The notes beneath the pieces were generated by a model. It was not told where the DNA came from, did no database searches, and was given only the letters and a program-made list of their open reading frames with translations. DNA of 64,000 nt, taken from positions 1-64,000 of the IMG/VR virus record IMGVR_UViG_3300009408_000001. One strand, 5' to 3'. Below are positions 60,561-62,782 of this stretch, piece after piece; within the stretch, counting starts at the first letter, position 1; every line of letters starts with the position of its first letter. Both the position numbers and the translations under genes were made by a program. The DNA comes from a virus.

Positions 60561-60836
60561 ATGGAAAAGGGTATTAACGTGGGGTTCGAGAAATTAATCG
60601 AAAGCTTCAGGGCAGAGACAGTCCAACTCGAGGACAAATGGCGTGCAGGAACACTGTACCGGCAACTTAAGTACCGTCGGTTAATGGGTTACTCCCGTCA
60701 CCATCGGTCCATTGTGGATGTGGCTAAAAGGGAAGATGAGTTAGAGGAGGCTCACATCCTGATGCTCGCCGAAAGGACACGCGAATTTCACAAATACCTG
60801 AAGGGGTTCGGATACTACGGTTTGTTTCTAGGATAA
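60561..60836 (+). CDS. 91-aa helical paralogue 1
   Basis: A 91-residue basic helical protein. FEKLIESFRAETVQLEDKWR at 9-28, then an Arg/Lys-rich segment, an acidic helix DELEEAHILMLAERTREFHK and an end YLKGFGYYGLFLG. It shares length and pattern with the next two cassettes. No membrane segment. Expressed from its own promoter motif and ended by its own terminator, which suggests an early host-takeover or anti-defence role; no known family. Confidence 0.7.
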   Translation: MEKGINVGFEKLIESFRAETVQLEDKWRAGTLYRQLKYRRLMGYSRHHRSIVDVAKREDELEEAHILMLAERTREFHKYLKGFGYYGLFLG

Positions 60837-60850
60837 ACCAACATAAGCAG

Positions 60851-60879
60851 GAGGCCCTTAACGGGGCCTCTTTCTTTTT
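60851..60879 (+). terminator. Intrinsic terminator, GAGGCCC class
   Basis: GAGGCCC (60851-60857) / GGGCCTC (60864-60870) followed by TTTCTTTTT and GCCGTTTCAGCC. Confidence 0.9.
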
Positions 60880-60896
60880 GCCGTTTCAGCCATTAT

Positions 60897-60936
60897 TAAA
60901 AACCATATTACCTTACTGATAACACATCCGTGTTAT
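60897..60936 (+). promoter_or_regulatory. CATATTACC promoter motif with stem-loop (copy 9)
   Basis: TAAAAACCATATTACCTTACTG, ATAACAC (60919-60925), loop ATCC, GTGTTAT (60930-60936), TTTGGAGATACAAAGATT before the ATG at 60963. Confidence 0.75.
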
Positions 60937-60962
60937 TTAACCAATTTGGAGATACAAAGATT

Positions 60963-61238
60963 ATGGAAACAATTACCGATGAGATGTTCCAGAAATTAAT
61001 AGAAAAATTCAGAGTAGTGACAGTCCAGATCGAGGAGACATACCGTGCAAACGCACTTGTACGGCAACGTAAGTGCCGTCGGATAGTTGGCAATCCAAGT
61101 ACTCCGCGTCTCGAGGAGGAGTTGGTTAAAATGGAAGATAGGGCATGTGAGAGACACATCACGTTACTAGCAGAAAGGACACGCAGGTTTCAAGACCACC
61201 TGAAGCGGCTCGGATACCGTGGGGTGTTTCTAGGATAG
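60963..61238 (+). CDS. 91-aa helical paralogue 2
   Basis: A 91-residue paralogue: ITDEMFQKLIEKFRVVTVQI (4-23), basic middle (RQRKCRR), acidic helix, ITLLAERTRRFQDHLKRLG and the end YRGVFLG. It shares TDEMFQKLIE with paralogue 3 and the LLAERTR / LxG end with paralogue 1. Own promoter motif and terminator. Function unknown. Confidence 0.72.
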   Translation: METITDEMFQKLIEKFRVVTVQIEETYRANALVRQRKCRRIVGNPSTPRLEEELVKMEDRACERHITLLAERTRRFQDHLKRLGYRGVFLG

Positions 61239-61251
61239 GCAACATAAGCAG

Positions 61252-61280
61252 GAGGCCCTTAACGGGGCCTCTTGTTTCTT
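61252..61280 (+). terminator. Intrinsic terminator, GAGGCCC class
   Basis: GAGGCCC (61252-61258) / GGGCCTC (61265-61271) followed by TTGTTTCTTT and GCCG. Confidence 0.85.
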
Positions 61281-61305
61281 TGCCGTTAATGGAATCAAGG
61301 ATTCT

Positions 61306-61345
61306 GAAATACCACATTACCTTACTGATAACACGTCCGTGTTAT
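61306..61345 (+). promoter_or_regulatory. CATATTACC-type promoter motif with stem-loop (copy 10)
   Basis: GAAATACCACATTACCTTACTG, ATAACAC (61328-61334), loop GTCC, GTGTTAT (61339-61345), TTTGGAGATACAAAGACT before the ATG at 61372. Confidence 0.75.
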
Positions 61346-61371
61346 TTAATCCATTTGGAGATACAAAGACT

Positions 61372-61647
61372 ATGGCAAAAATTACCGATGAGATGTTCCA
61401 GAAATTAATCGAAGAGCACCGGGAACTAACCACACAGCTCGAGAAAGCCTACCACACTGGTGTGGCAAAACGTAAGAACGAGGCCAACCTGGCCTTTGGT
61501 GACGCAATTAGCCCTCGTTTCGAGGAAAAAATGGCTAAACTTGAGGCGAAGATCCAAGAGGAGCACATCCTGTTCCTCGCCGAAAAGACACTCGAATTTA
61601 ACAAAGTACTTAAGAAGTACGGCTACACGGGGGTGTTTCTAAGATAG
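61372..61647 (+). CDS. 91-aa helical paralogue 3
   Basis: A 91-residue paralogue: ITDEMFQKLIEEHRELTTQL (4-23), a basic segment (VAKRKNEAN), FEEKMAKLEAKIQEEHILFL and the end YTGVFLR. The middle is more acidic and coiled-coil-like than in paralogues 1 and 2. Own promoter and terminator; it precedes the csx16 unit. Confidence 0.72.
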   Translation: MAKITDEMFQKLIEEHRELTTQLEKAYHTGVAKRKNEANLAFGDAISPRFEEKMAKLEAKIQEEHILFLAEKTLEFNKVLKKYGYTGVFLR

Positions 61648-61673
61648 TAAGTAACATAAGCAGGAGGCCCTTA

Positions 61674-61694
61674 ACGGGGCCTCTTTCTTTTTTT
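61674..61694 (+). terminator. Intrinsic terminator, GAGGCCC class
   Basis: GAGGCCC (61674-61680) / GGGCCTC (61687-61693) followed by TTTCTTTTTTT and GCCG. Confidence 0.9.
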
Positions 61695-61726
61695 GCCGTA
61701 TTTACTAAAACTGGTTTCAATGATCC

Positions 61727-61776
61727 TGAAACATTAGATTACCTTAGCGAGCATAGACAATATTGTTTAGATCTAT
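61727..61776 (+). promoter_or_regulatory. Diverged promoter motif upstream of csx16
   Basis: GAAACATTAGATTACCTTAGCG keeps the ATTACCTTA core. ATAGA (61753-61757) and TCTAT (61772-61776) flank the palindrome ACAATATTGT, so an inverted repeat again follows the core. Confidence 0.55.
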
Positions 61777-61784
61777 CATGGTAC

Positions 61785-61828
61785 ACAACCGTTAAGCGCA
61801 ACGGTTGTTTACCCGGGCAATATCGCCC
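61785..61828 (+). promoter_or_regulatory. Structured 5' leader of csx16
   Basis: Two hairpins lie between the promoter motif and the gene: ACAACCGTT (61785-61793) / AACGGTTGT (61800-61808), nine perfect pairs, and GGGC (61815-61818) / GCCC (61825-61828). The ribosome site AGGAG follows at 61836. The leader is longer than those of neighbouring cassettes and could stabilise the RNA or control translation. Confidence 0.55.
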
Positions 61829-61846
61829 AACCCTTAGGAGATTGAC

Positions 61847-62137
61847 ATGTTTAAAACTTACTTCATCTCGCGCCATGCCGGTGCACAGGACTGGGCCTTG
61901 GCCCAGGGTATTGAGGCCGAAATGGTCTCACACTTCGACCCATCTGTCGTTAAAGATGGTGACATTGTGATGGGCACATTGCCCGTCCAAATGGTGGCGG
62001 CTGTAGTCGCTTCCGGTGCTCGGTACTTGCACCTCACCATGTCCATCCCAGCAGAAATGCGTGGAAAAGAAATCAGTTCTTCCATGATGAACGAAATGGG
62101 GGCATCTCTGCAAGAGTTTACTGTTAAGGCCATTTAG
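61847..62137 (+). CDS. csx16: Csx16-family protein, probable viral ring nuclease / anti-CRISPR
   Basis: A 96-residue protein that matches the Csx16 (Cas_VVA1548) family along its whole length: TYFISRHAGAQDWALAQGIE (residues 4-23), HFDPSVVKDGDIVMGTLPVQ (29-48), GARYLHLTMSIPAEMRGKE (57-75) and MGASLQEFTV at the end. Csx16 genes normally lie beside type III CRISPR systems and are reported as ring nucleases that cut cyclic oligoadenylate signals. There are no cas genes here; the gene sits alone, in a phage early-type cassette with a structured leader and its own terminator. The likely role is to destroy cyclic nucleotide messengers and so block type III CRISPR effectors, parallel to the viral ring nuclease AcrIII-1. 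Family assignment is from motif recall; activity is inferred. Confidence 0.85.
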   Translation: MFKTYFISRHAGAQDWALAQGIEAEMVSHFDPSVVKDGDIVMGTLPVQMVAAVVASGARYLHLTMSIPAEMRGKEISSSMMNEMGASLQEFTVKAI

Positions 62138-62149
62138 GTCTTAGCAGTT

Positions 62150-62186
62150 CCCAGTGCGCGCTTGCGCTGGGGCTCTTTCTTTTTTG
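62150..62186 (+). terminator. Intrinsic terminator after csx16
   Basis: CCCAGTGC (62150-62157) / GCGCTGGG (62164-62171) with one G-T pair, then GCTCTTTCTTTTTTG. Confidence 0.88.
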
Positions 62187-62202
62187 TATCTCCGCAGGTA
62201 TT

Positions 62203-62245
62203 CAGAACCATATTACATAAGTGAGCATGAGCAATTGACTTATGT
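62203..62245 (+). promoter_or_regulatory. CATATTAC promoter motif with long stem-loop (copy 11)
   Basis: CAGAACCATATTACATAAGTG; ACATAAGT (62215-62222) pairs with ACTTATGT (62238-62245), an 8-bp perfect stem starting inside the motif. ATGAGCAATTG within the loop also occurs in the leader at 11194. AACGGAGTACAAC precedes the ATG at 62268. Confidence 0.65.
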
Positions 62246-62267
62246 ATTAATTATAACGGAGTACAAC

Positions 62268-62501
62268 ATGTTGTATGTACAAAGACTGTGGGCGATATGT
62301 GTGATTGTCCACTCCCAGAAGACCCTGAGACAGGACTTCACGAAAACGACCTGGTTCTCCATAGCCAGTGGTTCAATCAAGGGCCCCAGAGGCATTGCCC
62401 TGTTCAGCACCTTCCCTGTAGTATCGGGGATCTTTGTATCGTTCATGGTAGTTTGGGCTATCCTGCGTCCCATCTTTAAACGAATAGGTAAGAAAATATG
62501 A
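62268..62501 (+). CDS. Small membrane protein
   Basis: A 77-residue protein with a hydrophobic N-terminus (LYVQRLWAICVIVH), a polar basic middle and a membrane helix at about residues 46-67 (TFPVVSGIFVSFMVVWAILR), ending FKRIGKKI. The stop overlaps the next start (ATGA). First gene of a three-gene unit of envelope-directed proteins. Confidence 0.6.
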   Translation: MLYVQRLWAICVIVHSQKTLRQDFTKTTWFSIASGSIKGPRGIALFSTFPVVSGIFVSFMVVWAILRPIFKRIGKKI

Positions 62502-62782
62502 AAGACGTATATCTAGTAATCGTAACATTGGTCTTGTTGGGTATTGCTCAGTTCGCACAGGCGAACAACGTAATTGTAGTTGCAGTACAATGTTCGTCCA
62601 ACGTGGTGGTCATTTCCATCAATGATAAGAAACAAACCACGGCGGTAACCATACCGTACAACCACCCTAACTACAGGGCAATACAAATGCGGGTGGATTC
62701 TCTTGCCGTGTGGGCAAATGGGAGCCGTGCTGTTGAACTGTGTCGGGTCTTCTCTGGAATGGGAGCACCTGGTGGTGTTTAA
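62498..62782 (+). CDS. Secreted or periplasmic small protein with signal peptide
   Basis: A 94-residue protein with a clear signal sequence, MKDVYLVIVTLVLLGIAQ followed by FAQA and a probable cleavage before NN (about residue 23). The mature part (about 72 residues) is beta-rich with two Cys (Cys32 and Cys82 of the precursor) that could form a disulfide. Probably periplasmic or membrane-associated; possibly a superinfection-exclusion or receptor-blocking factor. No family recognised. Confidence 0.65.
   Translation: MKDVYLVIVTLVLLGIAQFAQANNVIVVAVQCSSNVVVISINDKKQTTAVTIPYNHPNYRAIQMRVDSLAVWANGSRAVELCRVFSGMGAPGGV

Follow-up and report, generated by a model that had tools for sequence, protein, structure and literature searches.

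A 96-aa product of the Csx16 (Cas_VVA1548) family is encoded at positions 61847-62137 (+ strand) of the window, i.e. of the first 64 kb of a virus record of 197,530 bases. We consider it probable that csx16 specifies a ring nuclease descended from the cellular type III loci of Pseudomonadota, which serves a nucleus-forming phage as an early anti-type III CRISPR enzyme. This reading draws on the identity and conserved residues of the protein, on the phage-type expression unit that surrounds its gene, on its phylogenetic placement and on the gene content of the phage.

Identity, conserved residues and predicted fold of the phage Csx16

A match to Csx16 along the full length of the product had been claimed in the preliminary description, with a profile search named as the way to check it. 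Both family profiles matched far above their cut-offs: Pfam PF09652 (Cas_VVA1548; E 8.5e-30, 103.2 bits, cut-off 25), in which residues 5-93 aligned with profile positions 1-90 of 91, and NCBIfam TIGR02620 ('CRISPR-associated protein Csx16'; E 6.6e-27, 93.6 bits, cut-off 46.35). The motifs named earlier (SRHAGAQDW, GDIVMGTLPV, GARYLHLTMSIPAEMRGKE and MGASL) are all there. By profile search the 96-aa product is the sole Csx16 in the whole record, and it matched neither the PHROG families nor, in a sequence search, any PDB chain. Homologues were gathered from plasmids, phages, IMG/VR and 64 loci of GTDB genomes; searches of IMG/VR and of the GTDB genomes with the phage Csx16 as a single protein returned nothing, and the homologues in these two sources were reached by searching with homologue alignments.

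Among 72 aligned homologues the invariant residues R9, H10, A13, W16, H29, G43, P46, R72 and G73 are all kept in the phage protein, as are the nearly invariant S8, G12, G38, D39, L45, G57, E75 and A86 (residue conservation was also examined on a set of 61 sequences). In Csx16 the modelled position of AMP lies against a face on which conserved residues cluster (PMC12409355); those of the residues listed here that are charged or aromatic are therefore likely to form the cA4-binding and catalytic set. AlphaFold2 (run on a 61-row alignment) predicted an alpha/beta structure (pLDDT 95.7, pTM 0.85), for which a Foldseek search against the PDB gave nothing at E <= 0.001. Its weak matches were Rossmann-like, and their top 50 included the ring nuclease Sis0455 with substrate, the viral AcrIII-2 and the cA4-bound CARF domain of Cam1. 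As no Foldseek match was significant, we treat the fold as supporting evidence: the predicted model agrees with a CARF-like fold, short of proof.

Gene content of the phage

The record is that of a new, divergent phiKZ-type phage which, judging by its gene content, almost certainly forms a nucleus. Counterparts of the phiKZ genes for PhuZ, DNA polymerase, RNAP subunits, SbcD and helicase follow one another in the phiKZ order, and the core genes of phiKZ-type phages (multisubunit RNAPs, DNA polymerase, PhuZ) are all present; the profile matches reached E 1.9e-52 for PhuZ and E 2.7e-177 for the DNA polymerase. A 647-aa ORF (record 135390-137333) directly precedes an RNAP subunit, as the shell gene does in phiKZ, and matched phrog_4795 ('nuclear shell protein', chimallin) over residues 73-646 (E 8.8e-33); the local order DNA polymerase - shell - RNAP is that of phiKZ. 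The same profile matched all other phiKZ-type records checked for a shell gene and none of the control genomes. It is the combination of shell protein, PhuZ and multisubunit RNAPs that leads us to a nucleus-forming phage; PhuZ itself is described as common, not universal, in such phages (PMC11724907). Its core proteins share only about 23-35% identity with those of named phages. The record, which is possibly incomplete, holds no tRNA genes and hence offers no host clue from this side, and the 652 spacers taken from arrays beside cellular csx16 genes gave only short chance matches to the phage.

A self-contained, phage-type expression unit

The gene is preceded by a phage promoter element (61724-61750, + strand) of the form TCCTGAAACATTAGATTACCTTAGCGA, a variant of TTATTAAGAACCATATTACCTTAATGA, the consensus of a 27-nt position weight matrix built from 22 other sites, with csx16 and its neighbours excluded. 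With 18.9 bits the csx16 element ranked 25th when all 394,956 positions of the record's two strands were scored, while column-shuffled matrices gave 0-2 matches at >= 11 bits (one strand, half of the record). The promoter core resembles the phiKZ and 201phi2-1 promoters TATATTAC and TATATTACDWHDGTG (table in PMC7058600), and in csx16 departs from the consensus by one base (AGATTAC for ATATTAC). The related OBP promoter was termed early on account of its location upstream of early operons (PMC7058600), and from this promoter motif we infer early timing for csx16; sites of the same class also precede PhuZ and an RNAP-like gene. No sigma-70 site was found upstream of csx16, and the scan for such sites gave fewer of them than shuffled sequences did; the phage-specific motif would thus explain expression better than a sigma-70 promoter.

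Downstream of the promoter, a short stem-loop (61754-61769), recognised by folding and by comparison with sibling sequences, is a degenerate version of the hairpin found just after the promoters of sibling units. It is succeeded by leader hairpin 1 (61780-61813; 14-nt arms, 93% complementary) and leader hairpin 2 (61815-61828; GGGC...GCCC), which are peculiar to csx16 when set against the sibling promoters and matched no known element in Rfam. The folding of the leader was far more stable than expected (z = -3.8; none of 200 shuffles was equally stable), and a role in mRNA stability is a simple guess. A ribosome-binding site (AGGAG, 61836-61840) lies 6 bases before the ATG, and the gene is closed by a predicted intrinsic terminator (62149-62186), composed of a 10-bp stem (62149-62172) and a T-rich tail. 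Upstream, the terminator of the preceding unit (61662-61691) parts csx16 from incoming transcription (all these elements lie on the + strand). The self-contained unit described earlier, with its promoter element, two leader hairpins and terminator, is therefore real. Read from its sequence, csx16 has the genomic setting expected of a type III anti-CRISPR gene, being borne by a mobile element in which no cas genes were found and equipped with a promoter of the phage class, a leader and a terminator.

Neighbouring cassettes and the record-wide promoter class

Small cassettes of one gene each are lined up at 60.5-62.8 kb, every one with a promoter element and a terminator, and the csx16 unit is among them. 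Three tandem paralogous genes (window 60561-61647; about 91 aa each when read from ATGs) come with separate phage promoters and leader hairpins; their terminators are nearly identical (GGCCCTTAACGGGGCC), and their products gave no solid family match. The cassette at 60963-61238 (+ strand), with its own promoter at 60893-60919 and a terminator, has a layout like that of csx16 and codes for an unrelated protein; the one at 61372-61647 (+ strand) is its paralogue. On the 3' side of csx16 (window 62154-62782), near a promoter of their own (62210), two small ORFs overlap each other; one has a transmembrane-like stretch and the other a signal-peptide-like start, and accessory functions at the membrane or in lysis are conceivable.

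The promoter class TTATTAAGAACCAYATTACCTTAMTGA extends over the whole record (e.g., window 10679, 12227, 30058, 42027, 60905 and 61314), and its strong sites are all on the + strand. Often a hairpin, GATAACACRTCCGTGTTATT, stands directly 3' of these promoters and may act as a 5'-end stabiliser of early transcripts. Behind the promoter site at record position 185627, an ORF (record 186070-186588) is, by eye, a candidate Ntn-hydrolase/proteasome-type (HslV-like) subunit.

Cas genes in cells, in other viruses and in this phage

Recognisable cas, RAMP, Csm6 or CARF genes were found in the fetched flanks of 57 of the 64 cellular csx16 loci. The type III cas association that is usual for Csx16 is absent from the phage record: tblastn with 12 Cas/Csm6/CARF queries found none of them there (nor in three IMG/VR viral contigs and the Drs3 stretch), a RAMP profile search of the whole record was negative and no array-like repeats occur across it. 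The earlier statement that the window is free of cas genes and arrays consequently holds, and extends to the entire record. Association with cas genes is, in any case, a trait of context that stands outside the definition of the protein family, and other viral Csx16 likewise come without them. In the three IMG/VR viral contigs (L018, L019 and L020) csx16 sits near transposition, terminase, portal or tail genes; thus, cas-free, phage-borne Csx16 occurs elsewhere too and is not confined to this record.

Two further observations concern these homologues. The gene that follows csx16 in L018, a Mu-like phage contig, has a phrog_14939/phrog_2450 domain (L018:3068-3847), and the N-terminal part of its product resembles the N-terminal extension of the preceding csx16 ORF. 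Two near-identical csx16 copies were present in one Acinetobacter MAG (contigs L078 and L079); no cas genes were detected in their flanks, and they may be mobile-element copies.

Descent of the phage Csx16

Identities to most cellular Csx16 range between 40 and 51% (the best, 51%, is to Wenzhouxiangella), and those to the Csx16 of the methanogen viruses Drs3 and PhiF3 are about 30%. In a tree of 73 sequences (built from few columns and with many open forks) the phage protein falls among Pseudomonadota Csx16, with Halopseudomonas as its closest neighbour at a support of 81/88, which is not firm, and does not group with the other viral sequences. The AU test rejected a constraint that joined the phage protein to the viral copies L018 and L019 (p 0.026), but not one that united all five viral rows (p 0.066); a single origin of all viral Csx16 is hence not supported by the tree, yet not firmly rejected. 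This position, among Pseudomonadota and apart from the viral copies, points to a proteobacterial type III locus as the likely source, from which the gene was probably taken up separately from the other viral uptakes of Csx16.

Ring nuclease families among phiKZ-type phages

None of nine named phiKZ-type phages and none of 74 phiKZ-type records from IMG/VR gave a PF09652 match above the cut-off, which leaves this record as the only carrier of csx16 among 84. The 74 records were found with an RNAP alignment (45 exceed 180 kb, 29 are shorter, and a few are copies of named phages); a search of IMG/VR in which the shell protein was the sole query returned no relatives. By tblastn against 50,697 phage records, Csx16 was found only in Drs3 and PhiF3, perhaps the two phage genomes in which Csx16 was noted by the survey of Hoikkala et al. 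2025 (PMC12409355).

One of the IMG/VR records (G048; 207,092 bases, shell protein E 8.5e-43) encodes a protein of the AcrIII-1 family (L181:1495-1830, 111 aa), which matched PF08960 with E 2e-7 and 31.5 bits (cut-off 26); a NUDIX gene lies 0.7 kb upstream. PF08960 (AcrIII-1/DUF1874) has no match in the csx16-bearing record. That two phages with shell genes carry ring nuclease families unrelated to each other would fit selection by type III immunity, and the rare, scattered carriage, together with the different ring nuclease of the second such phage, suggests that this selection operates host by host.

Proposed function and alternatives

A representative Csx16 degrades cA4, and neither cA3 nor cA6, in vitro (PMC12409355). 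Nucleus-forming phages are hit by type III and Cas13 systems, since their mRNA leaves the nucleus, and escape type I; in addition, type III arrays are enriched in spacers that match chimalliviruses (Malone et al., reviewed in PMC12908238; PMC13282480). The presence of a nuclear shell gene strengthens the counter-defence reading, because type III immunity still reaches phages of this kind. We propose that the phage polymerase which reads phiKZ-type early promoters would transcribe csx16 after infection, and that Csx16 would act as a dimer in the host cytoplasm. When a host crRNA paired with exported phage mRNA and Cas10 made cA4, Csx16 would bind this messenger and cut it to linear products, by which the cA4-activated effectors (Csx1/Csm6, Can/Card-type nucleases and others) would stay off. 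The removal of cA4 would, in this manner, close the RNA-level gap left by a nucleus that shields DNA.

The effector NucC responds to cA3. Given the cA4 specificity of Csx16 in vitro, the phage protein would be of no use against the NucC-based type III system with which Serratia halts phage PCH45 (PMC13282480). A 2025 paper, cited in PMC12751052, disputes the anti-CRISPR action of natively expressed AcrIII-1, and the same caution applies to the phage Csx16.

Csx16 could, as a ring nuclease or a sponge, be directed against another cyclic-nucleotide defence (of the CBASS type, or relying on some other cOA-like signal) and not against type III. Interception of cyclic nucleotides is known in this group of phages, as phiKZ has Tad1 against CBASS and Thoeris (PMC13282480), and at about 50% identity to the nearest cellular homologue the specificity could have shifted; we nevertheless hold this unlikely, given that the tested Csx16 cut cA4 alone, that CRISPR genes accompany cellular csx16 at 57 of the 64 loci and that every invariant residue is kept. 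Less probable still is that csx16 damps type III signalling which leaky targeting, or another phage in the same cell, has set off, and thereby keeps the host from aborting during replication of this phage; the chemistry would be unchanged. Type III effectors are toxic to the host and ring nucleases are dampers in cells (PMC12409355), but sequence cannot tell such a role from direct self-protection, and the early-type promoter suits both.

The retention of all invariant residues in a protein whose identity to even its nearest relatives is about 50% indicates long divergence under constraint, which makes a functionless passenger from a host plasmid or chromosome very improbable, in spite of the carriage by a single phiKZ-type record. 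The compact single-gene unit with its phage-class promoter and terminator argues in the same direction, as does a GC content (0.509) near that of the phage (0.45-0.50 in the neighbouring genes). An assembly artefact, in which bacterial DNA was joined to a phage contig, might be suspected in a virus record drawn from a contig collection with no cultured isolate behind it; we find it scarcely credible, as the unit is embedded at 62 kb in the record, with phage cassettes of the same promoter class on both sides, and no cas or other recognisable host gene adjoins it.

An early, anti-type III ring nuclease is hence the reading that we retain. Of the anti-CRISPR claim in the preliminary description, the Csx16 membership and the phage-resident unit stood and the proposed role is the best reading, whereas the novelty is narrower than had been implied. 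We lean slightly towards a broader proposal, by which nucleus-forming jumbo phages would have independently gained unrelated cA4 ring nucleases (Csx16 here, the AcrIII-1-family protein in the 207,092-base record) as cytoplasmic guards, which would then be the first means of countering type III immunity in these phages.

Comparison with known systems

The phage copy is homologous over its full length to the cellular type III Csx16 (PF09652/TIGR02620), has the same invariant residues and may, from its predicted structure, have the same kind of fold; it differs by residing in a jumbo phage devoid of cas genes, as a single-gene unit under a phage promoter. It is a plain member of its family, and phage-borne Csx16 is already on record: the Methanobacterium viruses Drs3 and PhiF3 encode it too, although these are small archaeal viruses, whereas the phage described here is, from its genes, a nucleus-former of the bacterial type. 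AcrIII-1 (DUF1874/STIV_B116-like, Crn2 family) is likewise a small viral ring nuclease that cuts cA4, as proposed for the phage Csx16, but belongs to a different profile family (PF08960). AcrIII-2, the second named viral ring nuclease (PMC12751052), similarly represents a component of cellular type III systems that viruses have turned against cA4, but is a SAVED-domain protein of 230 aa and not a Csx16. Within the nucleus-forming phages the nearest parallel in cyclic-nucleotide counter-defence is the Tad1 of phiKZ, which is a sponge against CBASS and Thoeris and not a type III nuclease; a 2026 review of jumbo phages gives Tad1 as the sole anti-defence protein described in them. In the literature searched (subscription journals were mostly outside it) a ring nuclease in a nucleus-forming phage appears unreported. 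A phage Csx16 with intact invariant residues provides a specific and directly testable answer to how such a phage may survive type III immunity.
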